A stretch of 64,000 nt of DNA, taken from the NCBI RefSeq assembly GCF_964048965.1, contig NZ_OZ040189.1, forward strand, positions 1,488,001 through 1,552,000, in the 5' to 3' direction. Position numbers and translations under genes: made by a program. Source of the stretch: Tenacibaculum sp. 190130A14a (lineage in GTDB: Bacteria > Bacteroidota > Bacteroidia > Flavobacteriales > Flavobacteriaceae). This document shows, piece by piece, positions 3,205 through 24,837 of the stretch. Numbering within the stretch: position 1 is the stretch's first letter; each line of letters begins with the position of its first letter. The notes under the pieces were generated by a model that did not search any database, was not told the origin of the DNA, and saw nothing but the letters and a program-made list of their open reading frames with translations.

Positions 3205-3275
3205 AACTGTAGTTAGTTGGAACTACTAAAAAATCCGATAAGTTCATTGACATAATTGTGGTAAGCAAACTTTAA
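3205..3275 (+). promoter_or_regulatory. Unit promoter region 1 (TTGAC with core TTGTGGTAAG)
   Basis: The imperfect hairpin GTAGTTAGTTGGAACTAC is followed by TTGAC (3247-3251) and the unit-start core TTGTGGTAAG (3256-3265). This core is complementary to CTTACCACA at the end of the same unit (4049-4057). The -7 element is less clear here than in the other copies. Confidence 0.65.
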
Positions 3276-3308
3276 TATGTAATTTAGTATTCACAAATAA
3301 ATTTCCTA

Positions 3309-4025
3309 ATGAACTACAAAAAGGAAGAAGAATTAATATTAGACAAGTTTAAACTTCATTATGAGTCTTTTCCGGAAGGAAAAATATTACCTATAGAAAA
3401 ACCAGATTTTATAATCCAAGGTAAAAATAGAAAAATTGGAATTGAACTAACTGAAGTGTTCTTAGATTCTAATGATAATAATATGATGTCTAGACTTGAA
3501 CGAAAATATTCAGATAGACGCATTTTCACAAGTGTTTTAATCAATAAACTTCAATGCCTTGTCAATTTTAAGTTTTGTATCTCAGTGTTCTTTAATGATT
3601 ATAAACCTATTAGAAAACTTAAGAGAGAGAATATATCGAATATAATTGTCGATTTAGTAAAGGATAGTTTTAAGATTCTAGATGATAAGCAAGAATTAAT
3701 ATATGATGACCTTTTTAATTTACCTGAAGAAATTTATGCTGTTGAAATCCTTAGATATGATGGTCTTAGTGAGTCTTTTGATAGAATCGATGCAGGAGAA
3801 ATATTTTTTGATCTAACAGAAACTCATATTAATACTATATTATTAAAGAAAGAAGAATCATTAATAAACTATCAGAATTGTGATGAACAATGGTTGTTAA
3901 TTCATGAAGGGAAGGGGTTATCTGGGACTTTCAAAAATATTAATATTTCAAAACCGATTGAAAGTACCTTTGATAAAGTCGTTTTATTTAGAATTAACTC
4001 TTGTGAAATAATTGAGTTAAAATAA
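3309..4025 (+). CDS. Putative PD-(D/E)XK-like nuclease-fold protein, 238 aa
   Basis: Residues 32-49 read PDFIIQGKNRKIGIELTE. A PD motif, then a beta strand with E-L-T, resembles variant PD-(D/E)XK nuclease cores (P-D...E-x-T). The remainder is alpha/beta without a further recognisable domain. It stands alone between its own promoter and terminator, with no attC-like core next to the ATG. Such proteins can be restriction-like or accessory nucleases. Catalytic activity is uncertain because the Lys is replaced by Thr. Confidence 0.7.
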   Translation: MNYKKEEELILDKFKLHYESFPEGKILPIEKPDFIIQGKNRKIGIELTEVFLDSNDNNMMSRLERKYSDRRIFTSVLINKLQCLVNFKFCISVFFNDYKPIRKLKRENISNIIVDLVKDSFKILDDKQELIYDDLFNLPEEIYAVEILRYDGLSESFDRIDAGEIFFDLTETHINTILLKKEESLINYQNCDEQWLLIHEGKGLSGTFKNINISKPIESTFDKVVLFRINSCEIIELK

Positions 4026-4048
4026 AATTAGAAGCTTTAACTAATTAA

Positions 4049-4083
4049 CTTACCACATACACCTTTTATGGGTGTTTTTTTTA
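4049..4083 (+). terminator. Unit terminator with core CTTACCACA
   Basis: The unit-end core CTTACCACA is followed by the stem ACACC-TTTTATG-GGTGT and a T8-9 run. It closes the one-gene unit carrying the nuclease-like gene. Confidence 0.8.
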
Positions 4084-4119
4084 TGTCAAAATTTTAGTAA
4101 ACAAATATTAATATAAGTG

Positions 4120-4186
4120 TAGGTTCTCCGATACCTTAAAAACGGAAAAACGTTCTTTGACATTATTGTGATAAGAAATATTTTTC
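4120..4186 (+). promoter_or_regulatory. Unit promoter 2
   Basis: The hairpin-like GGTTCTCCGATACC is followed by TTGAC (4157), a 17-bp spacer and TATTTTTC (4179). The spacer holds the core TTGTGATAAG (4166-4175), which is the exact reverse complement of CTTATCACAA at the end of the same unit (4822-4831). Confidence 0.75.
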
Positions 4187-4262
4187 GGATAAACATAACT
4201 GTTTTGTTGGGTTATCCAGAAAAATATACCGGATAACATTTATATTTGTTTGAATATAACTA
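4187..4262 (+). repeat. Leader repeat type A (attI-like position), copy 1
   Basis: A conserved segment lies between the unit promoter and the first GTT core. It contains GGATAAACATAACTG, GGATAACATTTATATTTG and AATATAACTAGTT. A near-identical copy sits at 8584-8659. The position matches that of attI in an integron; the role is inferred. Confidence 0.6.
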
Positions 4263-4311
4263 GTTGTGCGTAAGCCAAAAATCATAACGTTAAAATCAAC
4301 CAATAGATAAA

Positions 4312-4785
4312 ATGAAATTTAAATATTTATACTATTTTTTATGCATTTTATTGTTAAATTCTTGTAATAAAAAAAACAATGGAAATATTTCTTGTAGATT
4401 GTTTGATACTGAAAATTTAAACCAAGAAATAAAGTCTGTATATGATTTGAAAAATCAAGGTTTTAATCCAATTAAAGGGAATATTTCATTACTTGAAAAG
4501 AAAAATAGAGATACAATAGTTCATCTACAAATAGATCATAAGTTTAACGATTTGAGATGTAAAATATGGTTAATAAAATTGAATTCAATTAAAATAGAAG
4601 AAATAAGTACTTTTTTATTAAAATATAATCTACATATGACATCTAGCAGGTGTTATGATTATGATAAAAAAAGTACTTGTCAATTTTCAGTTTTTAACCC
4701 TAAAAATAACAAGGTATATATTTGTGAAGCCTACCATATTGATAAAACTCCTACATTGAAAGTTATTTACTTTGTTCCTAGATAA
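4312..4785 (+). CDS. Lipoprotein of unknown function, 157 aa
   Basis: The N-terminus has a basic start, a hydrophobic stretch (YLYYFLCILLL) and the lipobox LNSC, so the mature protein begins at Cys18 and is membrane-anchored by lipid. Two later cysteine pairs (around SCRLF/RCKIW and SRCYDY/STCQF) could form disulphides. No family is recognised. It is the only gene of its unit; a GTTGTGCG core starts the cassette, but a matching end is not evident. Confidence 0.75.
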   Translation: MKFKYLYYFLCILLLNSCNKKNNGNISCRLFDTENLNQEIKSVYDLKNQGFNPIKGNISLLEKKNRDTIVHLQIDHKFNDLRCKIWLIKLNSIKIEEISTFLLKYNLHMTSSRCYDYDKKSTCQFSVFNPKNNKVYICEAYHIDKTPTLKVIYFVPR

Positions 4786-4821
4786 AGTGAAAATTATTAA
4801 AACGTTAGTAAAACATATCAT

Positions 4822-4857
4822 CTTATCACAAAGCACCTTAATTAAGGTGTTTTTTTA
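4822..4857 (+). terminator. Unit terminator with core CTTATCACAA
   Basis: The core CTTATCACAA is followed by the palindrome CACCTTAATTAAGGTG and T7. It pairs with the unit-start core at 4166. Confidence 0.85.
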
Positions 4858-4904
4858 TGTCGAAAATTTAAAAGTAATATTAAAATAAGTGTAATAAAAG
4901 AAAT

Positions 4905-5098
4905 ATGAAAACAGCAATAGCAGAAACACATTTAGAGATCTGGGTCGACTGCCCACACTGTGATAATTACCAAAATATTTTGAAAAAGTAAGAGAATGTT
5001 TAGGTGATGATTTAAGAGCTGAAAACATAGAAGAATTGATAACCTGTGATAATGATGATTGTGGGGAACAATTCAAGGTAACTGAAATCGAGTATTAA
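4905..5098 (+). pseudogene. Frameshifted small zinc-ribbon protein
   Basis: The frame from ATG 4905 reads MKTAIAETHLEIWVDCPHC and stops at 4989. In the next frame the protein continues through VRECLGDDLRAENIEELITC with CDNDDC and ends EFKV-like with TEIEY. Together they make a typical double-CxxC zinc-ribbon protein of about 64 residues. Adding one T in the TTTT run near 4978-4981 restores NIFEKVREC. The gene is flanked by a direct repeat TATTAAAATAAGTGTA at about 4879 and 5093, unlike its reverse-oriented neighbours. A sequencing error is possible. Confidence 0.65.
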
Positions 5099-5104
5099 AA
5101 TAAG

Positions 5105-5173
5105 TGTAGATAATCGGAACTACTAAAACATCCGATAAGTTCATTGACATAATTGTAGTAAATAATAATTTTT
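5105..5173 (+). promoter_or_regulatory. Unit promoter 3
   Basis: The imperfect hairpin GTAGATAATCGGAACTAC is followed by TTGAC (5144-5148), a 17-bp spacer and TAATTTTT (5166-5173). The core TTGTAGTAAATAATA (5153-5167) is the exact 15-bp reverse complement of the unit end at 6906-6920. Confidence 0.8.
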
Positions 5174-5265
5174 CTAAATTAGCATGGAAGATAAAGACAT
5201 TTAAATATGACGATTTCTGTACCAAATTTGGAGTATAACGACGTATTTTATGCGTATATAAACAA
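5174..5265 (+). repeat. Leader repeat type B (attI-like position), copy 1
   Basis: A conserved leader with AAATTAGC...GGAAGATAA, ACGATTTCTGTAC, GTATAACGACG and TATATAAACAA lies immediately before the first GTT core. Other copies are at 7049-7138 and 15032-15123. Confidence 0.65.
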
Positions 5266-5286
5266 GTTGTACAACATTTGACCAAA

Positions 5287-5727
5287 ATGAAAGTTGAGTT
5301 TAAAGAATTAAGAAAAGTGTATAAGGAAATTAAAGACTTCCTTGAAAATGCTTCTGGAGAAAATGTAAAAGGACTGAATACGAAAATTTGCGAAGATTTA
5401 GGGCTTTGGGGAGATGACAATTATTTTCTATTAGAGGAATTTGTGACAAAGAATAATCTGAATTTTGACAAGTTTGACTACAGCGAGCATTTTGAAAGTG
5501 AAGGAGAATTATTTAATGGCAGTAATGCTTTAATCGGACTTTTAACTTTACCATTTCTTATTGTCGCTCGAATTATAAAATGGATTTTCCCAAAGATTAA
5601 AACACCTTTTGACAATTCTTTTCTTCCTATGAAAAACGAAAGAATTGATTTGACATTTGGAGACTTAATAGTTTGTAAGTTAAAAGGAGAATTTTGCTTA
5701 CGAAAAAACACACTAATCGAAATATAA
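5287..5727 (+). CDS. DUF1493-like cassette protein, about 146 aa
   Basis: The N-terminal 75 residues (TKICEDLGLWGDDNYFLLEE, NNLNFDKFDYSEHF) resemble the DUF1493 family, a small acyl-carrier-like fold of unknown role. A hydrophobic segment (ALIGLLTLPFLIVARIIKWIF) follows, suggesting membrane association, and then a beta-rich tail. ATG 5287 is chosen over an in-frame TTG at 5278 that lies inside the cassette core. The stop overlaps the next gene, so the two are translationally linked in one cassette. Confidence 0.7.
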   Translation: MKVEFKELRKVYKEIKDFLENASGENVKGLNTKICEDLGLWGDDNYFLLEEFVTKNNLNFDKFDYSEHFESEGELFNGSNALIGLLTLPFLIVARIIKWIFPKIKTPFDNSFLPMKNERIDLTFGDLIVCKLKGEFCLRKNTLIEI

Positions 5728-6104
5728 CATTGGACGAAAGAGCATTTAAGACATTAATAGAATATTTAGAAAAAATACCTTCAATGACAAAACCTATTTC
5801 ATCTGGTTCTGATGATGAAGGATTTTGGTGGATAAAATTTCAACTTGACATAACGAATGAATTAGCTTGGAATGTAGTTCAAGAATTAGGTTGTGTTGTC
5901 AATTACCTTTCGATTAATGAAAGATTACCAACAGTTTTTTACCCAGTCTCACCTGCACCTTATATGAATGGTGGACCAGAAGACTTTTTGTCTTGGGTAA
6001 TTGAAACAAGGGATAAAGAATTTAAACCAGGAACATTAATGAAATGGTTGGATGGTAGATTACCAAATCCAGTAGATGACTTGGAACAATGGGAAATGGA
6101 ATAA
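5694..6104 (+). CDS. Conserved cassette protein, immunity-like, up to 136 aa
   Basis: The core reads WWIKFQLDITNELAWNVVQE, then LSINERLPTVFYPVSPAPYM, NGGPEDFLSWVIE and RLPNPVDDLEQW. I recall this as a conserved Bacteroidetes family of small cytosolic proteins but cannot name it. The start is uncertain: TTG at 5694 overlaps the previous gene and TTG at 5730 is an alternative. The cassette ends (GTTGTACAACATTT and AAACGTTGTACAAC) match almost perfectly. Confidence 0.7.
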   Translation: MLTKKHTNRNITLDERAFKTLIEYLEKIPSMTKPISSGSDDEGFWWIKFQLDITNELAWNVVQELGCVVNYLSINERLPTVFYPVSPAPYMNGGPEDFLSWVIETRDKEFKPGTLMKWLDGRLPNPVDDLEQWEME

Positions 6105-6105
6105 A

Positions 6106-6249
6106 AAACGTTGTACAACAATGGCTATAAGTAATTGCTTGTTCTCGCCTACTTCTGAAAATCCTCGCGGATTTTCAGTTTGGTGTGTATTTGCAAAGTT
6201 AAGTGCTAACCCACGCAACTACTCATAGCCGAGACCGTTGGCAATAATT
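6106..6249. repeat. attC-like junction 5 (long type)
   Basis: The left core is AAACGTTGTACAAC and the right core GTTGGCAATAATT. The interior has the arms GGCTATAAGTAATTGC and CTCATAGCC, and the hairpin GAAAATCCTCGCGGATTTTC. Confidence 0.85.
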
Positions 6250-6254
6250 AACGA

Positions 6255-6767: not shown

Positions 6768-6770
6768 AAA

Positions 6771-6902
6771 ACTATTACCAACATGGTATAAACTTAATAA
6801 GGACTAAAAACCTAATATAAAGTTTGTTTTTACTTGCAAAAGTAGTTTCTAAACTGAAACTCATAGCATACAAATCCCTTACTAAGTTTATACAATACCG
6901 TT
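6771..6902. repeat. attC-like junction 6, last in unit 3
   Basis: The left core is ACTATTACCAAC. The arms GGTATAAACTTA and TAAGTTTATACAATACC are well paired. The right core GTTAAATATT runs into the terminator block. Confidence 0.75.
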
Positions 6903-6905
6903 AAA

Positions 6906-6945
6906 TATTATTTACTACAAACACCTTAGTTAAGGTGTTTTTTTA
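6906..6945 (+). terminator. Unit terminator with core TATTATTTACTACAA
   Basis: The core TATTATTTACTACAA is followed by the palindrome ACACCTTAGTTAAGGTGT and T7. It is exactly complementary to the unit-3 start at 5153. Confidence 0.85.
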
Positions 6946-6978
6946 TGTCCAAAATTTTAGAAACAAATATTAAAATAA

Positions 6979-7048
6979 TTGTAGTTAATTGTAACTATTA
7001 AAATATCCGAGGAGTTTATTGATATGGTTGTAGTAAATTATTATTTTT
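6979..7048 (+). promoter_or_regulatory. Unit promoter 4
   Basis: The sequence is TTGAT (7019), a 17-bp spacer holding TTGTAGTAAAT (7028-7038), then TTATTTTT. There is no gene between the previous terminator and this promoter, so it shows the empty form of the inter-unit block. Confidence 0.65.
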
Positions 7049-7138
7049 TTAATTTAGCTGGAAAGATAATGTCATATAAATACATCAATTTCTGTACTAA
7101 ATAAGGTGGGGTGACATATTTTATGGATATATAAACAA
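7049..7138 (+). repeat. Leader repeat type B, copy 2
   Basis: It shares AATTTAGCTGGAAAGATAAT, GTCATATAAATAC and TATATAAACAA with the copies at 5174 and 15032, and precedes the core GTTGGCATTCATTT. Confidence 0.65.
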
Positions 7139-7441: not shown

Positions 7442-7477
7442 ATTTGCTGTAAACACCTTAGTTAAGGTGTTTTTTTA
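7442..7477 (+). terminator. Unit 4 terminator
   Basis: The degenerate core ATTTGCTGTAA (8 of 11 complementary to the unit start) is followed by the palindrome ACACCTTAGTTAAGGTGT and T7. Confidence 0.8.
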
Positions 7478-7517
7478 TGTTTAGAATTTAAGAAAGAAAT
7501 ATTAAAAATAAGTGTAG

Positions 7518-7694
7518 TTATTTCTTAGAATTTTTAAAGCCTAAGTAGAATAATGAAAGAATTACTAAGAAAAAAAACACCAAGCCTAGTATATAACCAA
7601 TATCATTATTGTGGTCAGGAAAAACTCTAACAAAAACTGAGAGTAAGTATAAACCAAGAATAATGGAAATGAATTTTAAAATTTTCTTAATCAT
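7518..7694 (-). CDS. Tiny two-helix membrane protein, 58 aa
   Basis: The protein begins MIKKILKFISIILGLYLLSV. A short polar loop (PDHNNDIG) separates this from a second hydrophobic helix (YILGLVFFFLVILSLFYLGF), and the tail is KNSKK. TATTTTTG lies exactly 4 nt before the ATG. The TAA stop is followed directly by the CTAC module-boundary motif. It is the first of four opposite-strand modules between units 4 and 5. Confidence 0.6.
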   Translation of the reverse strand: MIKKILKFISIILGLYLLSVFVRVFPDHNNDIGYILGLVFFFLVILSLFYLGFKNSKK

Positions 7695-7733
7695 TTAACA
7701 AAAATAGTAAATCAAAATAAAGCAAAATCGTAG

Positions 7734-7910
7734 TTATCCTTCAATAATCTTAATTACTAAAATTATGAAACCGAAGAAGATTAGACTTACTCCAAGTAAC
7801 AAAAAGAAGCCTGAAAAGGGCAAGTAGTTCATCCATGCAAGAGCGTTAAATACGTAACCTAAAAGTATTAGAATAAGCCATAAGAGTTCTTTAGCAATTT
7901 TTTTGATCAT
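7734..7910 (-). CDS. Tiny two-helix membrane protein, 58 aa
   Basis: MIKKIAKELLWLILILLGYV is followed by ALAWMNYLPFSG and a strongly hydrophobic second helix (FFLLLGVSLIFFGFIILVI). Its N-terminus resembles the genes at 2946 and 7518. The promoter TATTTTTG is 4 nt before the ATG. The stop TAA runs into CTAC. The function is unknown. Confidence 0.6.
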   Translation of the reverse strand: MIKKIAKELLWLILILLGYVFNALAWMNYLPFSGFFLLLGVSLIFFGFIILVIKIIEG

Positions 7911-7971
7911 TTAACAAAAATAGTAAAACCAAAATAAGTGAAACAGTAGTTATAATGAAAACAAATAGCAA

Positions 7972-7996
7972 AAGAAAAGCGAACCGAAGTTCGCTT
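7972..7996 (-). terminator. Terminator of the 8023 gene
   Basis: The hairpin AAGCGAAC-CGAA-GTTCGCTT is followed on the minus strand by TTTCTTTT. The same stem terminates the GG-peptide genes near 27037 and 29649. Confidence 0.7.
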
Positions 7997-8022
7997 GAAA
8001 TATTAAGTTTAATACAAAGGAT

Positions 8023-8289
8023 TTATTTACCTACCTCATTAGGATCAACTAAGTCTTTACAAAGACCCGTTGAACCTCTATACCAAATAACTCTATTTTT
8101 TCCGCAAATACCATTTTCATTATTAATTTGAATTAATTCAATTGTTTCACATAAAGTATATCTGCTATAAATAATTGAAGATGTTTCTTCACATAATGAA
8201 GCATTTACATTTTCAACATTTTTTTTAAAAGAAGATAAAGTAATGAAGCCAGTTATTAAAACAAGACTTGTTAAAAGTAATTTTTTCAT
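8023..8289 (-). CDS. Small secreted Cys-containing protein, 88 aa
   Basis: A signal peptide (MKKLLLTSLVLITGFITLSS) precedes a mature part of about 65 residues with four cysteines, in SLCEE, TLCET, GICGK and GLCKD. Two disulphides are plausible, and the protein would be periplasmic or secreted. It has a longer leader than its neighbours and its own terminator, so it is a self-contained module in the cluster. No family is recognised. Confidence 0.65.
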   Translation of the reverse strand: MKKLLLTSLVLITGFITLSSFKKNVENVNASLCEETSSIIYSRYTLCETIELIQINNENGICGKNRVIWYRGSTGLCKDLVDPNEVGK

Positions 8290-8332
8290 AGAATATGATT
8301 TTAAATGAGGTACTAATATAAAAAAACTGTAG

Positions 8333-8488
8333 TTAAAGTTTGGATGATATGGCTGATAAAATTAGATACGAAAGAATAATTGTTCCAAAAAAGATGAAAT
8401 CATTAAAGCCAGGAAAAATTTCAGTTACTAATTGACCAATTATTAAGGAGAATAATAATCGCCAATACCATTTCTTTAATATACGCAT
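8333..8488 (-). CDS. Tiny membrane protein, 51 aa
   Basis: MRILKKWYWRLLFSLIIGQL, a Phe-rich loop and a second hydrophobic helix (FIFFGTIILSYLILSAISS) suggest two membrane spans. TACTTTTG precedes the ATG by exactly 4 nt. Upstream in-frame extension to 8593 is possible but would run into the forward unit promoter, so the ATG at 8488 is preferred. Confidence 0.6.
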   Translation of the reverse strand: MRILKKWYWRLLFSLIIGQLVTEIFPGFNDFIFFGTIILSYLILSAISSKL

Positions 8489-8512: not shown

Positions 8513-8583
8513 TAACCGTAGGTTCTCTGATTTCTTATAAACGGAAACGTTCATTAACATAATTGTGGTAAGAAATATTTTTC
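8513..8583 (+). promoter_or_regulatory. Unit promoter 5
   Basis: The sequence is TTAAC (8554), a 17-bp spacer, then TATTTTTC (8576). The spacer core TTGTGGTAAG (8563-8572) is exactly complementary to CTTACCACAA at 13858-13867, five kilobases downstream at the end of the same unit. Confidence 0.8.
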
Positions 8584-9931: not shown

Positions 9932-10138
9932 AATATTGCTAATAAAGTATATAATAAATTGTGTGTTAGATGGTTTACGAAAGTTTCGTGGTTGTCTGAA
10001 ATACCTCCAAATCGTTGATTTGACTTTTTTAAGAATGGGTAAATTAGAAACAAAATACAACGATTTGGCTCAGTGCAAAATTGAAAGTTTATTGCTTTCT
10101 ACTGGCATACTTGCCATATACTAAACGTTACCATACAT
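9932..10138. repeat. attC-like junction 8 (long type)
   Basis: The left core is AATATTGCTAAT and the right core GTTACCATACAT. The interior, about 180 bp, shares several blocks with the junction at 646-837: the region around GGTTTACGAAAG, AATCG...CGATTTGGCT and CAGTGCAAA. ORFs read here are artefacts of the repeat. Confidence 0.8.
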
Positions 10139-10753
10139 ATGAAAAAAAAAATGCTTATGTTATTCTTTTTGGGTTCAATTATCTGTTCCACATCCGCTCA
10201 AGAGCCACAAGAGTTTTGGGAATGGGAATTTGAGATGACCAAATATGATTCATTAATTCATGAAAAAATCTATAGAGTTTCAATAGGAGCTAATCAACAA
10301 GTAGAACTCATCAAATTTAAAAACGGAGATTATAAAGGGCACTTGAATAATGTGATTTGGACGACAAACAGTAAGGAAATAAGAAAGAAGAGAATAAGTA
10401 GTATTATAAGAATACAAGATTCAATTGCAGGAGAATTATTTAAGAATTTTGAAGAATTGAATTTTGAATACATTCCCGATTGTGAAAAAATTGAAAATTG
10501 TATTAATGGGCTTGATGGAGAAACTACTTTCTTTTCAACTGAAACAAAAAAAATAAATAAGACTGTGTCATTTTGGGAACTTACTTCAGATTACTATTAC
10601 AAAAAAGATATACCAAAAGAAGTAATGACAGCACGAAAAATAATGAGTCTTATAAATTCTGAATTTAATTTAAAAAAGCAGTTTGATGATTTCACAAACA
10701 GATTACCCAAAGGTAAATATATTATTAGTTCAATAATCATGGTGAAAAGATAA
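10139..10753 (+). CDS. Secreted protein of unknown function, 204 aa
   Basis: The Sec signal peptide KKKMLMLFFLGSIICSTSAQ has a probable cleavage after SAQ. The mature protein is rich in aromatic residues at the start (EFWEWEFEM) and contains a CEKIENC cysteine pair. The ATG follows the cassette core directly. The cassette ends GTTACCATACAT and ACGTATGGTAAC are complementary over 11 of 12 bases. The function is unknown. Confidence 0.75.
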   Translation: MKKKMLMLFFLGSIICSTSAQEPQEFWEWEFEMTKYDSLIHEKIYRVSIGANQQVELIKFKNGDYKGHLNNVIWTTNSKEIRKKRISSIIRIQDSIAGELFKNFEELNFEYIPDCEKIENCINGLDGETTFFSTETKKINKTVSFWELTSDYYYKKDIPKEVMTARKIMSLINSEFNLKKQFDDFTNRLPKGKYIISSIIMVKR

Positions 10754-11766: not shown

Positions 11767-12921
11767 ATGAATATGACACGAAAAGAATTTATTAAATTTT
11801 GTAGTTTATTAGGAATCAGCCTACCATTTCAAAATGCTATGGCAGTTTCTAATTACGTCAATCCTCAAAGTAAATTCAAAGGTAAAGTACTTATAATAGG
11901 TGCAGGCGCCGCAGGCTTAACAGCAGCATATCGACTGTCCCAATTAGGAATTAATTATCAAATTTTAGAAGCTTCATCCAACTTTGGGGGTAGAATGAAA
12001 ACAACAAATGATTTTGTTGACTTCCCAATTCCTTTAGGTGCTGAGTGGTTACATGTTAAAAGAAAAATTTTTGATGAAATCATTAACAACCCTACTAAAG
12101 AAATAAAAATTGAAACAACGCACTATAATGCATTAGATGATGCGTTATACGACGGAGAAGAAACATTTATGAATGAAATGGGGTTTGGTATTGATCAAAA
12201 ATTTATTGGTTCTTCTTGGTTAGATTTTTATAAACAATACATCTTACCTTCTATACAAGACAAAATAATGTATGAGCAAATTGCAAAATCTATTGATTAT
12301 ACTAGCGATAAAATTACAATCAAAACACAAAATGATAATTTTAAAGCAGACAAAGTAATTGTTACAATTCCTGTAAAAATGCTTCAAAATAATGCTATTA
12401 CATTTACGCCTCAATTACCTGAAGATAAACGAGAAGCTATAAAGGACGTTACTGTTTGGGACGGACTTAAAGCATTTATTGAGTTTTCAGAAAAATTTTA
12501 TCCTACTGCAACGGAATTTAATGTTTCGGGACAAAAAATGTACTATGATGCTTCTTATGGGCAAAATTCTGAGCGCAATGTTTTAGGTTTTTTTGTTGTC
12601 GGTGATGCATCGTTACCTTACCTACAATTATCAGACTCTGAGTTAATTAAATATATCTTAAAGGAATTAGACGAACTGTTTGATGGTAAAGCATCTCAAA
12701 GCTATATAAAGAAAATTTCGCAAAATTGGAGTAAAGAACCCTTTATTAAAGGCGCCTATGTTTATGACGAAGAAAGCTGGAGAACCGTTAGAACACTTGG
12801 AGAGTCAGTGAGCAATAAAATATTTTTTGCTGGAACAGCTTATACAGAAGGAGATGATTGGGGTGGAGTTCATTCGGCTGCACATTCAGCCATTAGGTCT
12901 GTAAATGAAATATTAGAATAA
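11767..12921 (+). CDS. Flavin-containing amine oxidoreductase, 384 aa
   Basis: The N-terminus has a leader-like segment (EFIKFCSLLGISLPFQNAMA), then the Rossmann FAD motif VLIIGAGAAGLTAAYRLSQLG at residues 39-59. The monoamine-oxidase motifs EASSNFGGRM and PLGAEWLH follow, with the C-terminal FAD signature FFAGTAYTEGDDWGGVHSA. These enzymes oxidise amines or related substrates with O2 using FAD; the substrate is unknown. The protein is shorter than typical MAO family members (about 450-500 residues), with a reduced substrate domain. Compared with neighbouring cassette cargo, it is the most clearly enzymatic. Confidence 0.85.
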   Translation: MNMTRKEFIKFCSLLGISLPFQNAMAVSNYVNPQSKFKGKVLIIGAGAAGLTAAYRLSQLGINYQILEASSNFGGRMKTTNDFVDFPIPLGAEWLHVKRKIFDEIINNPTKEIKIETTHYNALDDALYDGEETFMNEMGFGIDQKFIGSSWLDFYKQYILPSIQDKIMYEQIAKSIDYTSDKITIKTQNDNFKADKVIVTIPVKMLQNNAITFTPQLPEDKREAIKDVTVWDGLKAFIEFSEKFYPTATEFNVSGQKMYYDASYGQNSERNVLGFFVVGDASLPYLQLSDSELIKYILKELDELFDGKASQSYIKKISQNWSKEPFIKGAYVYDEESWRTVRTLGESVSNKIFFAGTAYTEGDDWGGVHSAAHSAIRSVNEILE

Positions 12922-13857: not shown

Positions 13858-13892
13858 CTTACCACAAAGCACCTTAATTAGGGTGTTTTTTT
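13858..13892 (+). terminator. Unit 5 terminator with core CTTACCACAA
   Basis: The core is followed by CACCTTAATTAGGGTG and T7. It is exactly complementary to the unit-5 start core at 8563. Confidence 0.85.
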
Positions 13893-13939
13893 ATGTCAAA
13901 AATTTAAAAATAAATATTAAAATAACTGTAGTTAAACAA

Positions 13940-14221
13940 TTAATGGAGTTGCGATATTACACCGAAGAATAACAAAACTGGTAGAATTAATGAAACGACA
14001 ATACCAAGTAAATTTAAGATTAATCCTTCCCGGAAATTGATTTGATAAGATTTTATTGAGTTAGTTATAGAAATGATTAAAAAGATTGAGCAAAATAAAA
14101 GCACCCAATTTCTGTAAAAAAAGATGTAGATATTGAACTTTGGAATATCTAAACTGCGGAAGATAATTATTCCTAAGCATATCAAAAAAATAGGATAAAA
14201 AGTGAAGAATATCTTTTTCAT
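13940..14221 (-). CDS. Small membrane protein, about three helices, 93 aa
   Basis: Hydrophobic segments occur at residues 4-20 (IFFTFYPIFLICLGIII), 38-55 (WVLLFCSIFLIISI) and 70-90 (LILNLLGIVVSLILPVLLFF). A three-span inner-membrane protein is predicted. A TGTTTTTG element sits 4 nt before the ATG. It is the last-transcribed position of a four-gene opposite-strand cluster between units 5 and 6. The function is unknown. Confidence 0.65.
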   Translation of the reverse strand: MKKIFFTFYPIFLICLGIIIFRSLDIPKFNIYIFFYRNWVLLFCSIFLIISITNSIKSYQINFREGLILNLLGIVVSLILPVLLFFGVISQLH

Positions 14222-14252
14222 ATAGCAAAAACAAAATAAAGCAAAACAGTAG

Positions 14253-14432
14253 TTAAGTCAATTTAAAAGCAATAAATGTAGAAATGATACAAATTACTAA
14301 TCGAATCGAGAATTGTTCTGATTTGAACCATTTTATTCTTTTCGGTGTTTTTGAGATATAAACTTTGTTAAAAATAAATTCAATTAATAAACAGAAGGAA
14401 ATTAAAAGAAGACCTCTTAAAAAATAAATCAT
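14253..14432 (-). CDS. Tiny two-helix membrane protein, 59 aa
   Basis: MIYFLRGLLLISFCLLIEFI, a basic loop (KVYISKTPKRIKW) and a second helix (SIRLVICIISTFIAFKLT) are visible. TACTTTTG is about 11 nt before the ATG. The TAA stop overlaps the CTAC boundary motif. No family is recognised. Confidence 0.55.
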   Translation of the reverse strand: MIYFLRGLLLISFCLLIEFIFNKVYISKTPKRIKWFKSEQFSIRLVICIISTFIAFKLT

Positions 14433-14482
14433 AAGTTTTTATTCAAAAGTAATTAAATCCAGATAAAGTAAAACAGTAGTTT

Positions 14483-14731
14483 TTATTCCTCATTTACATA
14501 TGTGATTGATAAAGCTATTACAATAGCACCAGACAAATAAAGAAATGGAGATCCGTTTTTGTCAAAGTCAGAAAGTGCAATTCCAGAAAGAAAAGATATA
14601 GATAAAAAAAACATTAAAAAATTTCTGAAGAAACTTTTACTCATCATGGATTTTTTACGAATAAGGATTATTAGAAACGAAGCTATTACTATGGTAACTA
14701 TTAAAAGAGGAATCGGATAAAAAACAGTCAT
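14483..14731 (-). CDS. Small membrane protein, FFRNFLMF family, 82 aa
   Basis: Three hydrophobic segments are predicted: LLIVTIVIASFLIILI, FLMFFLSISFLSGIAL and LYLSGAIVIALSITYV. The block FFRNFLMF...FLYLSGAIVIALSITY is shared with the gene at 25144, so this is a paralogous module in another cluster. ATG 14731 is chosen over 14749 because TATATTTG precedes it at a short distance and the earlier ATG lies in the promoter. The function is unknown. Confidence 0.65.
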   Translation of the reverse strand: MTVFYPIPLLIVTIVIASFLIILIRKKSMMSKSFFRNFLMFFLSISFLSGIALSDFDKNGSPFLYLSGAIVIALSITYVNEE

Positions 14732-14781
14732 GCAATTAATTTTTATCAAATATAGAAAATCAAAACAAAATAAACCTGTAG

Positions 14782-14943
14782 TTAGAAGAAGTCAACGTTA
14801 TCTCCGGGGTCATAATAATGATTAGAAGACTTGGTGTTTTCATCGTAACCAAGATAATCTCTAATAAGTCCGATTATAATTCCTAGAACTATGACAGAAA
14901 TAATAAACAATAGAATAAAACCTGCTTCTGTAATTAACATCAT
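14782..14943 (-). CDS. Tiny membrane protein, 53 aa
   Basis: MMLITEAGFILLFIISVIVL is followed by GIIIGLIRDYLGYDENT and the polar acidic tail HYYDPGDNVDFF, so a single membrane span is likely. TATTTTTG is exactly 4 nt before the first of two adjacent ATG codons. It is the first gene of the cluster, next to forward promoter 6. Confidence 0.6.
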   Translation of the reverse strand: MMLITEAGFILLFIISVIVLGIIIGLIRDYLGYDENTKSSNHYYDPGDNVDFF

Positions 14944-14962
14944 AAATCAAAAATAGTAAAAC

Positions 14963-15031
14963 AGTAGTTAATTGGAACTATTAAAATATTCGAGGAGTTC
15001 ATTGATATGGTTGTAGTAAATTATAATTTTT
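14963..15031 (+). promoter_or_regulatory. Unit promoter 6
   Basis: The sequence is TTGAT (15002), a 17-bp spacer, then TAATTTTT (15024). The core TTGTAGTAAATTATAATTT (15011-15029) pairs with AAATATTATTTACTACAA at 23837-23854, nearly 9 kb downstream. Confidence 0.75.
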
Positions 15032-17613: not shown

Positions 17614-18138
17614 ATGAAAAAAATTGGTTTAATAATATCAATTCTACTTCTGAATCTCAACTCGGGATTTTCTCAAACCGAATCTGAAATTGACTCTTTG
17701 CTAATTGGAATTGCGGAAACGGAAAACTCAAAAGAAATAATAAAAACCGTTCAAGCCGAAAAAATAAAAGCATTTGGAGAAAATTCTTTGATAATTCTTG
17801 CGGAGTATTTTACTGATACAACTTTGACAAAAATTAAATCGGAATGCCATAATAGGAATTTGACAAAAGGAGAAATTGCAATCATAATGGCTGATAGAAT
17901 TGAGCCTATGCCATATTTTACTGTTACTCAAATTCAAAATTGCACACTGACTTTTTGCGAAAATAATCCAAATAGAATTGAATATTATTTTAGTACAAAC
18001 AATTATCTTAATAACAAAGTATTTAAAGAAAGATACGTGGAATGGTTATTTAGTGAGGATAGATTAAAAAGCGTAAAAGGAAAAGACAGAAAAAAGAGAA
18101 AGAAAATATTAACTGAATGGAAAAATAACAGCAGGTAA
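17614..18138 (+). CDS. Secreted protein of unknown function, 174 aa
   Basis: The Sec signal KKIGLIISILLLNLNSGFSQ is followed by a helical mature domain. It contains HNRNLTKGEIAIIMADRIEP and CTLTFCENN, and a basic C-terminus (GKDRKKRKKILTEWKNNSR). The TAA stop is formed by the cassette end core GCAGGTAAC. About 100 bp of untranslated sequence separates the start core from the ATG. No family is recognised. Confidence 0.7.
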   Translation: MKKIGLIISILLLNLNSGFSQTESEIDSLLIGIAETENSKEIIKTVQAEKIKAFGENSLIILAEYFTDTTLTKIKSECHNRNLTKGEIAIIMADRIEPMPYFTVTQIQNCTLTFCENNPNRIEYYFSTNNYLNNKVFKERYVEWLFSEDRLKSVKGKDRKKRKKILTEWKNNSR

Positions 18139-18270
18139 CACCGTGTATAATTCACTGCTAGTACTCGCCTACTTACGAAAGTCCTCGCGGACTTTCTATC
18201 TGTGATTTATTTGCTAACTTTAGTGCTTAAACCACGCAACGAAATCATACACTAGACCGTTGTGCATAAT
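18127..18270. repeat. attC-like junction 16 (long type)
   Basis: The left core is AACAGCAGGTAAC and the right core GTTGTGCATAAT. The arms GTGTATAATTC and AAATCATACAC are paired; the hairpin is CGAAAGTCCTCGCGGACTTTC. It is almost identical to junction 19. Confidence 0.9.
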
Positions 18271-19408: not shown

Positions 19409-19413
19409 GAGAA

Positions 19414-20175: not shown

Positions 20176-21210
20176 ATGGATGCAAATTTAAGCTACGCAG
20201 TTCCACAATTAAAATTCAATCTAACTGACTCTTTACCTAATTTACAAATAGGTTCTGAAAAAACAATTCAATTATCTGCATATGACTCAATGATTCCATC
20301 ATTGGTAAAATTGGCAAAATTATTAAATCACAACTTGAATTTGAAGAATAGTAAGCCTTATCAATTTTACAATCCTTATTTAAGAGAATCAGAGTCTATT
20401 GATTTAATAAAAACCACAAAAGAAAAAACAGAAAGAAAGCGAATTTCTGGACATCGATTTATAAACGAAAAAGACATAAACTATTTGGAGTTAGATAGTT
20501 TGGATTTAAAGATGTCTTATTTATTGCATAATTATTTGATTTCAGTAGCTGAAAAAGAATGGATAGACACAATTTCAACTAACGGCTTAAGAGAAGAATT
20601 TTCTTTAAGTAAAGCTTTGAAAAACTCTGATAGTGTTTACAAACTTAATCTAAGACGTAAAAGAATGAGTTCAATTCCGCCTGAAATAGGAAAATTGAAA
20701 AATCTAGAGGTCCTGATAATTTCTGGTTCTACAATAAAATCTCTTCCAGATGAAATTGAGGAATGCAAGAATCTGAAATCAATAATTGCGAACTCTAGTA
20801 AATTAGAAGAAATTCCTGCAACTTTAGGGAATTTAAAGAAATTAAGAACTTTAAAAATTGGTCATTGCAACATAAAGTCTATACCAAAAGAAATTGGTAA
20901 TATAGAAAGTCTATGGCATTTATCTATTGGAGATAATAGTATTAAATATGTTCCAAAGGAATTATCTAAACTCAAAAATTTGACTTGGTTAGATATAAGT
21001 GACAATCCAATAGAAGAATTTCCTGAATGCATTTTAGAAATGGAAAATCTAGAAAGGTTCTGGCTATATGGAACTAACATAAAAGAAATTCCTTTTGAAT
21101 TTAAGAGATTAAAATATTTAGACCATGTTAGATTAAATAAGACAAAAGTTTTAAATATAGATTCATTGGCTTCAGTAATGCCAGAGGTAATGTTTTTAAA
21201 TAAAAATTAA
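20176..21210 (+). CDS. Leucine-rich repeat protein, 344 aa or longer
   Basis: The C-terminal half contains about seven leucine-rich repeats of the bacterial SDS22/internalin-like type: IPPEIGKLKNLEVLIISGST, IPATLGNLKKLRTLKIGHCN and KYVPKELSKLKNLTWLDISD. LRR arrays bind proteins. The same frame stays open upstream to 19972 and encodes a basic segment plus a hydrophobic anchor (YALLLFLFLSVVGFY), but no ATG, GTG or TTG. The true protein is probably membrane-anchored and starts from a non-standard or mutated codon near 19978-20002. Confidence 0.8.
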   Translation: MDANLSYAVPQLKFNLTDSLPNLQIGSEKTIQLSAYDSMIPSLVKLAKLLNHNLNLKNSKPYQFYNPYLRESESIDLIKTTKEKTERKRISGHRFINEKDINYLELDSLDLKMSYLLHNYLISVAEKEWIDTISTNGLREEFSLSKALKNSDSVYKLNLRRKRMSSIPPEIGKLKNLEVLIISGSTIKSLPDEIEECKNLKSIIANSSKLEEIPATLGNLKKLRTLKIGHCNIKSIPKEIGNIESLWHLSIGDNSIKYVPKELSKLKNLTWLDISDNPIEEFPECILEMENLERFWLYGTNIKEIPFEFKRLKYLDHVRLNKTKVLNIDSLASVMPEVMFLNKN

Positions 21211-21357
21211 AAACTGCACCTAACAATGTGTATAATTCATTGCTAGCTAGAGCCTACTTACGAAAGTCCTCGCGGACTTTCTATCTGTGATTTATTTGCT
21301 AACTTTAGTTCCTAAACCACGCAACGAAATCATACACTAGACCGTTGTAAGTCATTT
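21211..21357. repeat. attC-like junction 19 (long type)
   Basis: The left core is AAACTGCACCTAAC and the right core GTTGTAAGTCATTT. The arms GTGTATAATTC and AAATCATACAC are paired; the hairpin is CGAAAGTCCTCGCGGACTTTC. It is nearly identical to the junction at 18127. Confidence 0.9.
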
Positions 21358-21434
21358 AGACAAAACCGCAAGAATCGGGTTTTTCAATGATTAAATATTT
21401 CAGAATATTGTCAAAACATTAAACCATACAGAAA

Positions 21435-22856
21435 ATGAATTTTGATTTTGACGATAAACAACGTAAAGAAATATTAAATACTGTTTTAGATAAAGTAGAA
21501 CATTTTTATGCTAACACCAAAGATTACAGCACTACGCCTAAACTAAATTTACAAGAAATACGAAATTTAGTCGAAACACCAGATTTAATTTCAGGAAATA
21601 AACCTAATGAGGCTATAGAACATATAATCAATGGTCTTGAAAATTATTCGGTGCATACACCACATCCAAACTATTTTGGTTTATTCAATCCACGTGCAAA
21701 TTTTGCTGGAATTATAGCAGATTTCATAACTGCTTCATATAATCCTCAATTAGCAGCGTGGAGTCACGCCCCTTTTGCTGTGGAAGTAGAAGCACACGTG
21801 ATTAGAGAATTTATTGAAAAATTTGGACTGGACAAAAAAAAATCTGATGGTGTTTTTACAACTGGGGGTGCTGAAGCAAATTTAACTGCTGTATTATGTG
21901 CGTTAAACAATAAATATCCAAATTTTGCTAAAAATGGAATGTTTGGTTTAGATAAAAAACCTATTATTTTTTGTTCTCAAGAAGCACATCACTCTGTACA
22001 AAAAGCAGCAAAAGTTGTAGGTTTAGGATATGATTTTGTAAAAACTATTCACACTAATAAAGATTTAAAAATTGACACTTTTCTATTAGAGAAAGAAATC
22101 AAAAAACTTAATGCTTCAACTCAAAGTCCATTAATGGTTATTGGTACAGCTGGAACAACAGGAACAGGAACAATTGATGATTTAGAAAGTATATCTAAAA
22201 TTTGTAAAACTCACGACATTTGGTTTCACGTTGATGCTGCTTATGGTGGAGCAGCTGTTTTAAGTTCAAAACTAAAACAGTTATTAAGTGGTATTCCAGT
22301 TTCCGATTCTATAACATTTGATGCACATAAATGGATGTCTGTTCCTATGGGAACAAGTATATTTTTGACCTCTCACCAAGAAATCCTTAATAAAACATTT
22401 AGAATAACCACAGAATATATGCCTAAAGAGGCAAGTGAAATGAAAATTATTGAACCTTTCTCGCATTCCATTCAATGGTCAAGACGATTTATTGGTTTAA
22501 AGGTATATTTATCTTTATTATTTTATGGTTGGGATGGTTATGAAAAAGTAATCAATCATCAAGCTAAAATGGGAGAATATTTAAGGCTAAAACTAACTGA
22601 AAACAACTGGATTATTAAAAATAATACTGAATTACCAGTAGTTTGTTTTACAGACCAACAATTTGAATCGGATTTGAACTTTACAAAAACCATTTTAAAT
22701 AAAATATTGACTAGAGGAAATTCTTGGTTGTCGGTTTATCCAATAGAAAATGTTCCAACATTTAGAGCTTGTATTACTAACTATAATACAACAGAAACAG
22801 AAATTGATGAATTAATTGAAGAATTGAATAAAGAACGAGAAACATATCAATCTTAA
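21435..22856 (+). CDS. PLP-dependent group II decarboxylase, 473 aa
   Basis: A full-length fold-type I PLP enzyme of the aromatic amino acid/glutamate/diaminobutyrate decarboxylase family. Motifs include HTPHPNYFGLFNPRANFAG, the TTGGAEANLTA cofactor loop and the HVDAAYGGAAVL aspartate. The Schiff-base lysine is in FDAHKW (Lys299). The amino-acid substrate cannot be read with confidence. It is followed after 2 nt by an AraC-Ogt gene in the same 2.35-kb cassette, unusually large cargo for this array. Confidence 0.9.
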   Translation: MNFDFDDKQRKEILNTVLDKVEHFYANTKDYSTTPKLNLQEIRNLVETPDLISGNKPNEAIEHIINGLENYSVHTPHPNYFGLFNPRANFAGIIADFITASYNPQLAAWSHAPFAVEVEAHVIREFIEKFGLDKKKSDGVFTTGGAEANLTAVLCALNNKYPNFAKNGMFGLDKKPIIFCSQEAHHSVQKAAKVVGLGYDFVKTIHTNKDLKIDTFLLEKEIKKLNASTQSPLMVIGTAGTTGTGTIDDLESISKICKTHDIWFHVDAAYGGAAVLSSKLKQLLSGIPVSDSITFDAHKWMSVPMGTSIFLTSHQEILNKTFRITTEYMPKEASEMKIIEPFSHSIQWSRRFIGLKVYLSLLFYGWDGYEKVINHQAKMGEYLRLKLTENNWIIKNNTELPVVCFTDQQFESDLNFTKTILNKILTRGNSWLSVYPIENVPTFRACITNYNTTETEIDELIEELNKERETYQS

Positions 22857-22858
22857 CA

Positions 22859-23701
22859 ATGTTAAGCAAAAAAGACACATACCAATATAGCAAGATAGCT
22901 GAAGCTATTAGCTTTATAGAAAATAATTTTCAAGAACAACCTTCATTAAATGATATTGCAAATCATATACATTTAAGCCCACATCATTTTCAACGTTTAT
23001 TTAAAGATTGGGTTGGAATAAGTCCTAAAAAATATTTAAAATTTGTTAGTTCTAAATATGCTAAAAGTCTATTAAAAAAGACAGATTCAAATCTTTTTGA
23101 TACAGCCTACAAAACAGGTCTTTCAGGTACAGGAAGGCTTCACGATTTATTCATAACTTTAGATGGTATGACACCAGGCGAATATAAAAATGGAGGTGTA
23201 AATTTAACTATCTACTATTCATTTGCTACAACGCCTTTTGGAGAAATTTTGGTAGCTTCAACCAAAAAAGGTATATGTCATATGGCATTCTCTGATAATC
23301 AAGAAAACACATTTCATAACTTACAATCAAAATTCCCAAATGCGATTTATAAAAACCAAATAGATGAGGCACAACAAAACGCATTGCTGATTTTTAAAAA
23401 CGATTGGAGTCAATTAAACAACATTAAACTACATTTAAAAGGAACAGATTTTCAATTAAAAGTATGGGAAGTTTTATTATCTATTCCTTTTGGAGAATTA
23501 TCTAGTTATGGTACAATAGCTCAAATGATTGGAAATCCCAAAGCATCTAGAGCAGTAGGCACTGCAATTGGAAATAATCCTGTGGCATATCTAATTCCTT
23601 GCCATAGAGTAATACAACAATCTGGACAAATAGGTGGTTATCATTGGAATCCAATAAGAAAAAAAATAATAATAGGTTGGGAAGCATCTAAATTGGATTA
23701 A
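22859..23701 (+). CDS. AraC-type regulator fused to O6-methylguanine-DNA methyltransferase, 280 aa
   Basis: Residues 10-105 form a double helix-turn-helix AraC domain (LNDIANHIHLSPHHFQRLFK). Residues 115-280 form an Ogt/Ada-C domain with the alkyl-acceptor cysteine in PCHRV (Cys248). Its DNA-binding motif precedes it, with SRAVGTAIGNNP. It repairs O6-alkylguanine by suicidal transfer. It lacks the N-terminal zinc domain of E. coli Ada, so methylphosphotriester sensing is absent. The cassette ends GTTGTAAGTCATTT and ACGCCTTACAAC pair in the core. Confidence 0.9.
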   Translation: MLSKKDTYQYSKIAEAISFIENNFQEQPSLNDIANHIHLSPHHFQRLFKDWVGISPKKYLKFVSSKYAKSLLKKTDSNLFDTAYKTGLSGTGRLHDLFITLDGMTPGEYKNGGVNLTIYYSFATTPFGEILVASTKKGICHMAFSDNQENTFHNLQSKFPNAIYKNQIDEAQQNALLIFKNDWSQLNNIKLHLKGTDFQLKVWEVLLSIPFGELSSYGTIAQMIGNPKASRAVGTAIGNNPVAYLIPCHRVIQQSGQIGGYHWNPIRKKIIIGWEASKLD

Positions 23702-23836
23702 AAACGCCTTACAACAACGTATATAAAGAATAGTGGTTTAAGTGCTTAACCTAAAAGCATTTTGTAATTTTAGCCTTAGTAATAACTCGAAAAGTTTGTG
23801 CGTAAAAACCCACTACTTTTCATATACGAACCCATT
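23702..23836. repeat. attC-like junction 20, last in unit 6
   Basis: The left core is AAACGCCTTACAAC. The arms CGTATATAAAGAATAG and TTTTCATATACGAACCC are paired. The position of the right core reads CATTAAATATT and enters the terminator block. Confidence 0.75.
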
Positions 23837-23878
23837 AAATATTATTTACTACAAACACCTTAATTAAGGTGTTTTTTT
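23837..23878 (+). terminator. Unit 6 terminator
   Basis: The core AAATATTATTTACTACAA is followed by the perfect 18-bp palindrome ACACCTTAATTAAGGTGT and T7. It pairs with the unit-6 start at 15011. Confidence 0.85.
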
Positions 23879-23917
23879 ATGTTAAAAATTTAAAGGTAAA
23901 TATTAAAATAAGTGTAG

Positions 23918-23975
23918 GTATCTCCGATACCTTAAAAACGGAAAAGTTCATTAATATAACTGTGGTAAGTAAAAC
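23918..23975 (+). promoter_or_regulatory. Unit promoter 7
   Basis: The hairpin GGTATCTCCGATACC is followed by TTAAT (23951) and the core TGTGGTAAGTAA. The -7 element is not obvious. No tiny genes occur between this and the previous terminator, so it is an empty inter-unit block. Confidence 0.55.
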
Positions 23976-24053
23976 ATAATGTTTTGTTATCACGAAAAAT
24001 CAATTAGATATTTAATAATTTTGTTTATGTATAACCAGTTAGATTTAATAAGA

Positions 24054-24719
24054 ATGAAATACTTATTTATATTAATATTTTTTAGTTTAGTTAGTTGTTC
24101 ATCAACAAAGAAATTGACAGAAAACAGTACGAAACCTACAAAGTTTGTTTTTAAAGAATCTATGGTTTCAATACAAACTGGAATTTCGGATTTGGAAACG
24201 AAAACGAAAGGAAAAGATTCTTTATTAAACAAAAAACTAAATGGAATAAAGATGTCTCAATTGCTATTGAAAAAACCAAATACAGAGATTTATGTTGAAA
24301 TTGAAAATGATACGGTTTGGCGTTATACCAAACAAGAAGGTATAATGATTGGCGATTATTTTATGATTCAAAAAAATACTGGAGTTTTACATTATTATGA
24401 TAAATCCAAATCTATCAATTATAAAAAGTATGATCTATTTGCAAAAAACCACGAATATGAAATAATTGAAAATAGAGAAGATGTTAAAGAGATAAAAGGA
24501 TTTAAATGTTATAAGCTCACTCTGATTAAAAAGGAGAGAGAAAGTGATTTAGGATATACGAAATATGAAATGTATGTCTCTGATCAGATAGAATTGCCAA
24601 TTCATTCTGTAATTAACTTGACTAAATTTATGCCTAATACTTTTCCAATGGAGATAAGAATTTCAAATGGGGATTTTTCAGGAGTTACCCAATTATATGA
24701 ATTAATAAAAATTGATTAA
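24054..24719 (+). CDS. Lipoprotein of unknown function, 221 aa
   Basis: From ATG 24054 the protein has a textbook lipoprotein signal (MKYLFILIFFSLVSCSS, Cys15). An upstream in-frame ATG at 23979 would place 25 extra residues before the signal and is rejected. The mature protein is a beta-rich domain (YVEIENDTVWRYTKQEG, YEIIENREDVKEIKGFKCYK, LPIHSVI). It resembles the GLPGLI/DUF4412-like outer-surface sheets common in Bacteroidetes. It is the single gene of unit 7, and the exact role is unknown. Confidence 0.75.
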   Translation: MKYLFILIFFSLVSCSSTKKLTENSTKPTKFVFKESMVSIQTGISDLETKTKGKDSLLNKKLNGIKMSQLLLKKPNTEIYVEIENDTVWRYTKQEGIMIGDYFMIQKNTGVLHYYDKSKSINYKKYDLFAKNHEYEIIENREDVKEIKGFKCYKLTLIKKERESDLGYTKYEMYVSDQIELPIHSVINLTKFMPNTFPMEIRISNGDFSGVTQLYELIKID

Positions 24720-24771
24720 CATACTGCAATACCCTATACAATAAATAAGTTGAAGCATTGCTTACTATAGG

Positions 24772-24798
24772 TCAACACTCAAAAGTGTTGATTTTTTT
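24772..24798 (+). terminator. Unit 7 terminator
   Basis: The stem TCAACACT-CAAA-AGTGTTGA is followed by T7. The preceding GCTTACTATAG is a weak complement of the unit start core. Confidence 0.8.
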
Positions 24799-24837
24799 AT
24801 GTCCAAAATTTTAGAAATGATTACCAAATAATTGTAA

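Follow-up and report, generated by a model that had tools for sequence, protein, structure and literature searches.

Whether groups of gene cassettes can be framed as larger units with matching ends of their own is the question raised by a 64,000-nucleotide stretch of the Tenacibaculum sp. 190130A14a genome (hereafter the window; bases 1488001-1552000 of this 3.94-Mb single-contig genome). Integrons are described as having one platform with one attI site and one promoter, and the silence of cassettes at a distance from that promoter is a known problem. A first-pass annotation of the window had proposed that cassette runs are grouped in units reaching from a promoter to a terminator, and that the start and end cores of each unit are complementary and vary together. 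The present analysis confirms that the start and end cores match within units and covary. It also suggests a reading with two levels, in which framed units carry integron-type inner cassettes and their paired outer ends would form a second recombination site; this account is preferred, tentatively and at a confidence a little short of even.

The frame reads in the order TGTAG joint, head, GTTC, A or T, TTGACATAA, start core, leader, gene or cassettes, and end core, followed by a terminator hairpin with a T run, ATGTC, an A-rich tail and the next TGTAG. Coordinates below are those of the window, plus strand, unless noted otherwise. In unit 1 the joint and folded head, with TTGACATAA, lie at 3209-3255, the start core TTGTGGTAAG at 3256-3265 and the end core CTTACCACA at 4049-4057, and 9 of 10 positions pair, the first pair being T.T. 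Unit 2 has its joint and head at 4119-4165, its start core TTGTGATAAG at 4166-4175 and its end core CTTATCACAA, followed by the terminator, at 4822-4831 (11 bp paired). The start core of unit 3, TTGTAGTAAATAATA (5153-5167), pairs at 15 of 15 positions with the end core TATTATTTACTACAA (6906-6920), which again precedes a terminator. Unit 5 runs from TTGTGGTAAG (8563-8572) to CTTACCACAA (13858-13867), with 11 bp paired and 5,304 bp from core to hairpin, and unit 6 from TTGTAGTAAAT (15011-15021) to ATTTACTACAA (23844-23854), with 11 bp paired across 8,842 bp. These five pairs had already been quoted and were all recovered in place. Two further units were absent from the first-pass annotation: unit 4, with TTGTAGTAAAT at 7028-7038 and ATTTGCTGTAA at 7442-7452 (8 Watson-Crick and 3 G.T pairs in 11), and unit 7, with CTGTGGTAAG at 23960-23969 and CTTACTATAG at 24761-24770 ahead of a different terminator hairpin (8 Watson-Crick and 2 G.T pairs in 10, pair 1 having changed doubly from T-A to C-G). 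Three more two-ended units lie elsewhere in the genome, with cores starting at 1573269 (12 of 12 paired), 1574162 and 3609945, for a total of ten.

The pairing was probed statistically with units from the same genus, in which G-numbers denote genomes and L-numbers individual fetched loci. Starts were collected by upstream context and core likeness in this and same-genus genomes, so that start conservation is biased, while ends were collected by a rule of hairpin, T run and ATGT in which the core was not used. One false start was removed, and units 4 and 6, whose context failed the filter, were added by hand. The resulting 59 starts gave 45 start-end units in 13 Tenacibaculum genomes (the other 14 had no terminator by this rule behind them and were left unscored), and merging same-core units within one genome left 41 distinct units. 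With 12 bases scored, the mean pairing score of these 41 was 10.69, compared with 9.88 (standard deviation (sd) 0.12) after reshuffling, and 0 of 2000 shuffles were as good. Nine units of this genome (1573269 was found afterwards) scored 10.71 versus 9.51 (sd 0.37), a score equalled in 1 of 5000 shuffles. Taken by themselves, the 31 GG-type units scored 10.55 versus 10.16, again with 1 of 5000. Thirteen further starts, some of them among the 59 but unpaired and four with altered spacing before the core, were re-examined; a second end rule supplied eight of them with an end (scores 7.7-12.0, outside the permutation set).

Compensatory double changes occur at pairs 1, 5, 6, 10 and 11. Among 39 units (two of the 41, scoring below 8, are excluded), pair 5 is G-C in 29 and A-T in 8, pair 10 is G-C in 30 and A-T in 7, and pair 11 is T-A in 28 and A-T in 6; pair 6 is A-T in unit 2 and pair 1 is C-G in unit 7, each a double change in a single unit. 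Pairs 5 and 10 switch independently, and all four combinations are found with matching ends: GG..AAG, AG..AAAT, AG..AAG (1573269 of this genome and G264) and GG..AAAT (G351 C7 4793). One unit from the second end rule, G242 C8 21357, has a GG..AAAT start with an end fitting GG..AAG. The permutations and double changes bear out the complementarity and covariation that had been claimed, and covariation across genomes contradicts the idea that the cores are fixed sequences. The first-pass annotation had also stated that several adjacent cores of different units do not match. Eighteen pairs of neighbours lie less than 3 kb apart, 11 of them with differing start cores, and in these the end fits its own start better than the next in 10 and worse in one; most adjoining units of G320 have identical starts, which makes pairing within and between units indistinguishable there. 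The deviations from Watson-Crick pairing at positions 2-10 of the 39 units comprise 16 G.T, 3 A.C and 7 others (p = 0.002). Since a G.T on the sense strand is a C.A mismatch on the other, this bias suggests that it is the sense strand, as RNA or single-stranded DNA, that folds.

Outside the cores, the head carries two interleaved stems. In unit 1 these are GTAGTT/AACTAC and GTTGGA/TCCGAT, in unit 2 AGGT/ACCT and TCCG/CGGA, and TTTTCAG/CTGAAAA is a head stem in relatives. Across 46 heads, the second stem scores 11.5 within heads and 8.8 between them (best of 300 shuffles 9.9), and the first 10.8 and 9.8 (best shuffle 10.6), in a set where five heads resisted parsing and about three were retained despite a cut at an incorrect GTA. 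Where units directly adjoin, the hairpin lies 104-109 bp from the next core (10 of 18 neighbour rows). Most start cores are preceded by an A, with GTTGTAGTAA found in just units 4 and 6 of this genome, and TTATGTC is kept 3' of 9 of the 10 core-preceded terminators of this genome. A search of the window with Rfam at gathering score gave no matches, and a known structured RNA is set aside.

The Bacteroidota promoter has the form TTTG...TAnnTTTG. In 19 of 51 leaders a -7-like TANNTTT begins between +9 and +17, with 5.0 expected (maximum 13 in 1000 shuffles), and the full box TANNTTTG lies at +10 to +45 in 7 of 51, with 1.8 expected (maximum 7 in 500 shuffles); TANNTTTG was found just upstream of the joint in 0 of 46 cases. 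Based on the position of the box and the form of the promoter, the start core probably lies in the promoter spacer, inside the promoter and outside the transcript, for which this evidence is suggestive and falls short of proof.

The first-pass annotation has units start inside a promoter and end at a terminator. The paired cores are real, but the clearest switches between unrelated neighbours occur outside them, at the TGTAG joint, some 47 bp ahead of the start core and some 60 bp past the end core. When alignment ends were compiled for the fetched regions (at least 88% identity, 120-3000 bp, 13-base box), 43 of 329 fell at GTAG/CTAC, compared with 16.3 at random (maximum 28 in 500), most ends lying elsewhere. 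A 705-bp unit is 93% identical between G354 and G319 while its left neighbour switches at GTAG, and a 736-bp stretch that occurs twice in this genome at 99% identity, 2 Mb apart (L038 ~293-1028; L039 13585-14314), ends at GTAG. Modules of G242 likewise end at GTAG before differing neighbours, and one and the same chromosomal location in G286, with flanks 89-91% and 79-85% identical, holds different content. In G320 one leader stands behind different heads, suggesting either another breakpoint close to the core or homologous recombination within the conserved block.

The inner level of the units was compared with arrays that follow a tyrosine recombinase in relatives. The queries were 32 candidate joints from the window, drawn with a pattern that also catches non-sites, and the targets were seven recombinase loci fetched from relatives, two of which hold little 3' sequence (2.0 and 0.1 kb). 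Sixteen of the 32 candidates match recombinase-linked arrays. Of the 81 matches, 79 lie downstream of the recombinase on the same strand and the other two straddle its stop codon; none was found in 79.8 kb upstream of the recombinases or on the opposite strand. One such site, at 18124-18263, is 90% like that at 21209-21348 and matches the arrays in L152, L153, L154 and L156. The recombinase-linked arrays also have complementary starts and ends, for example GTTGGGCAC/GTGCCCAAC in L156. The inner level has attC-type sites with complementary R'' and R' and a G^TT joint, as in clusters of attC sites lacking integron-integrases (CALINs), and in relatives attI and an array in one orientation stand behind the recombinase, while in this genome no recombinase stands beside the units. 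Judged by their sites, the inner cassettes are integron-type. Loci L145-L157 more generally hold flavobacterial integron-like systems, with a recombinase of ~370-400 residues that has no IntI segment, attI directly 3' and attC-type arrays. The large cassettes of units 5 and 6, at 11767-12918, 20176-21207, 21435-22853 and 22859-23698, encode a flavin amine oxidase, a leucine-rich repeat protein, a pyridoxal-dependent decarboxylase and a fusion of an AraC-type helix-turn-helix with O6-methylguanine-DNA methyltransferase.

An extra domain near the C-terminus is described as what sets IntI apart among integrases, and Salinibacter as the one case in Bacteroidetes for which a complete integron is named (PMC9024848); IntegronFinder 2.0 gave no integron on one Tenacibaculum (PMC10013915). 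A protein matching TIGR02249, with E up to 1e-25, is present in 116 of 166 Tenacibaculum genomes, and neither in the 166 nor in this genome does a match exceed the cut-off of the model, which sets aside a canonical IntI. Among the matches listed, these proteins mostly have ~370-410 residues; shorter ones may be ordinary XerC/D. Three recombinases were examined, and each fits best to NF040815, the XerA/integron-integrase model, one of them above its cut-off. The L152 recombinase aligns with IntI 2a3v in two pieces, omitting chain residues 181-238, and with XerA in one piece; by these alignments it has no IntI-specific segment, and an integrase bearing this segment, as in a complete integron, was not found. 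The present genome encodes two Xer-like proteins with 30-33% identity and otherwise weaker matches. Since a close copy of the loading recombinase is absent from this genome, the inner level is probably idle here.

A connection between the two levels is provided by the unit leaders. A segment of the unit 2 leader (4211-4267) resembles the 3' end of the recombinase gene together with the attI region that follows it (81% over 57 bases in L152, 77% in L157), and it is 77% like the region just behind the recombinase gene in L154 (attI). The leaders of units 2 and 5 are 92% alike; that of unit 5 matches the attI part and has an attI-like motif at ~8651. A motif of a second kind lies in unit 3, ~102 bases 3' of the start core at 5153-5167. 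In G242, a unit leader on another contig matches the recombinase 3' end and attI of the same genome over 78 bp (87%, E 5e-17). The first motif occurs in 6 of 50 leaders (~1.1 expected) and the second in 12 of 52 (~0.24 expected), as well as in 4 of 13 regions behind recombinase genes; of this genome's 10 units, 8 carry one or other kind. Because leaders match the recombinase 3' end and attI, a unit can be described as promoter, attI-like site, cassettes and terminator, and by this homology the units are integrase-less integrons. The sequence read around the seven recombinase loci contained no units. The first-pass annotation describes units as groups of cassette runs; the frame also holds single genes, and many units of relatives seem to have one gene and no inner cassettes.

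Under the preferred reading with two levels, each unit would be an expression frame consisting of joint, head, promoter region with start core, leader (often attI-like), gene or cassettes, and terminator. The inner cassettes would be loaded and shuffled at attI and attC by the Xer-like, integron-type recombinase, a reaction proposed on the site homology described above; the enzyme would act in trans, because relatives encode it elsewhere. In a circular or head-to-tail unit, the end core, terminator hairpin and TTATGTC tail would fold against TTGACATAA and the start core into an attC-shaped hairpin of ~136 bases on the sense strand, with the joint in its variable top. This outer junction, which runs from the end core through hairpin, tail, joint and head to the start core (median 136 bases), has the layout of attC, with a variable top flanked on either side by two paired boxes and with one-sided unpaired bases, and its folding is stronger with own than with mixed ends (-19.7 versus -17.5, sd 0.32; 43 units, 30 shuffles); an R' box with GTT at the joint is lacking in most starts of the outer level. 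Matching within the unit is what a circle would need, as in an array the end faces the start of the next unit. From these features we infer recombination at the outer junction, circular units and an enzyme acting on them, such that the folded site would let whole units move. The fuller proposal, that packages move as super-cassettes through a site folded from the sense strand and bearing one unit's terminator and the promoter of its successor, and that many attI-bearing packages receive promoterless cassettes from an integron-type recombinase that has no IntI segment, is possible and is held more loosely.

Several results weigh against this reading. No whole-unit excision, circle or empty site was seen, so the claim that the cassette rule is repeated one level up stands for the nested levels and covarying ends but falls short for movement. 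Unit 0, with its end core CTTACCACAA at 2726-2735 (2726-2762 with the terminator) and its leader upstream of the window at genome position 1486432, has lost its start core, and its ends are unpaired (score 4.2). A start-like site, TTGGGATAAA (25742-25751), upstream of an acetyltransferase gene has no matching end that could be found. The end of G351 C7 7409 is fitted better by the start of the next unit than by its own, a start in G277 has no in-register pairing with the next end, and the margins of own over next start are small for units 3-4 (12.0/10.7), 4-5 (10.1/9.7) and 6-7 (10.7/10.3). The G.T excess has to be weighed against the stronger conservation of starts over ends, and against the fact that substitutions in the end core lead more easily to G.T than to A.C. 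TTATGTC and GACATAA are both near-constant, so that their pairing cannot demonstrate covariation, and many leaders, especially in G320, have no clear -7 box at the expected place, the perfect TANNTTTG being limited to the 7 of 51. Tyrosine recombinases are present in three of the fetched array regions, and the stop codon of one, in a G320 array (L119 9303-10502, minus strand; Arm-DNA-bind_5, Phage_int_SAM_5 and Phage_integrase), lies 11 bp short of the first unit's joint. Five homologues found elsewhere (59-61% identity) all have no unit following them, and this protein is not put forward as the outer-level enzyme.

The same pairing could act in RNA. If transcription began at or before the start core, the 5' end of the mRNA would pair with its 3' end beside the terminator, which would protect the message or link its ends, and the head stems would be structure of the 5' leader. 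The preference for pairing on the sense strand (16 G.T versus 3 A.C), the end core directly before the terminator, and the two interleaved, covarying stems of the head, which resemble RNA pseudoknots, are all consistent with such a clasp. It is nevertheless judged unlikely, although the most serious competitor, since the clustering of TANNTTT 3' of the core (19 of 51 versus 5.0) and the 0 of 46 for TANNTTTG upstream of the joint indicate that the core is probably untranscribed, and it leaves unexplained the TTATGTC found behind the terminator in 9 of 10 cases in this genome.

Mobile elements offer another source of matching ends, namely the inverted repeats of a non-autonomous transposon or of a repetitive extragenic palindromic (REP) or IS200-like element cut at GTAG, in which case the pairing would reflect no more than one recognition sequence shared by both ends. 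A GTAG beside a palindrome is the layout described for GTAG-tagged REPs (PMC3733652), and alignment ends are enriched at GTAG. However, repeats read as double strand would not be expected to show an excess of G.T, nor single-base covariation among the units of one genome, and the Y1 transposase (PF01797), the one family searched, has 0 matches in this genome, with the control positive in 5 of 14 genomes. An element of the REP-associated tyrosine transposase (RAYT) or IS200/IS605 type is set aside on this count, and the explanation as a whole is improbable. Less probable again, and largely refuted, is plain inheritance, in which a few families of leader and trailer were copied whole with one start and one end each. 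Leaders and trailers do form families, and most starts and ends of G320 are alike, but pairs change together within near-identical families (unit 2 versus units 5 and 1574162; G264 versus G320), pairs 5 and 10 occur in four matching combinations, and the 31 GG-type units pass the permutation on their own. The two-level reading is retained over these alternatives.

Known systems provide partial likenesses to units read in this way. The inner cassettes are like integron attC cassettes in arrays and CALINs, with complementary start and end cores, a fixed site orientation, a palindromic site of ~70-150 bp following each gene and, in relatives, arrays behind a tyrosine recombinase and attI; they differ in that the recombinase has no IntI segment and the cassettes are distributed over many promoter-to-terminator units instead of a single array. 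In the delta-attI cassettes of mobile integrons (PMC12901181), attI also lies away from the integrase inside movable units, but there it replaces attC behind the gene, whereas here it stands at the front of an entire unit, after the unit's own promoter, and the ends pair. Vibrio superintegrons also have additional promoters across the array (PMC11014356), carried there by cassettes within a single array; in the present system a promoter and a terminator enclose whole groups of cassettes. GTAG-tagged REPs with TnpA-REP share GTAG beside a small palindrome (PMC3733652, PMC8266576), and differ from this system, in which there is no Y1 transposase and the palindrome lies within the ~47-bp head of a gene-bearing unit. 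Openly licensed papers, searched by title and the start of the abstract, yielded none on paired-end cassette units or on a recombinase with an array in Flavobacteriia, and likewise none on a cassette-of-cassettes layout, in agreement with the first-pass annotation. Ten framed units, each with a promoter region and terminator and eight with an attI-like motif, would ease the silence of distal cassettes, and paired outer ends would be the cassette rule one level higher. Furthermore, a linked recombinase without the segment regarded as marking IntI makes the need for this segment in folded-site recombination assayable.

The frame appears to have a narrow distribution. The start pattern, with at most 3 mismatches, is present in 15 of 166 Tenacibaculum genomes, and G277 and G286 have units that the pattern misses. 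Of the 15, 10 are among the 116 genomes with a recombinase match, and presence of the frame does not track the loading recombinase. Titled matches to the start pattern are from Tenacibaculum in 11 of 12 cases, the other being a Flavobacteriaceae bacterium (L083). A loose form of the pattern, which is weak, gave at most 4 matches per strand in one genome each of 197 other genera, like the reversed control, and with this weak pattern the frame is taken as confined to Tenacibaculum.

Additional features accompany the units. Small minus-strand genes bounded by the TGTAG joint lie between them at 2800-3212, 7500-8340 and 13930-14960, and also in L038 (~293-1028) and L039 (13585-14314). In L071 (G286), part of a flanking acetyltransferase gene is duplicated together with a unit leader (8131-8428 and 10053-10349; 90% over 298 bp), and the leader of the first copy begins at a GTAG inside the start core. 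Finally, repeated minus-strand frames at ~27148-27293 and 29784-29928 of the window, and in many relatives, resemble by eye double-glycine leader peptides of bacteriocin-like type.

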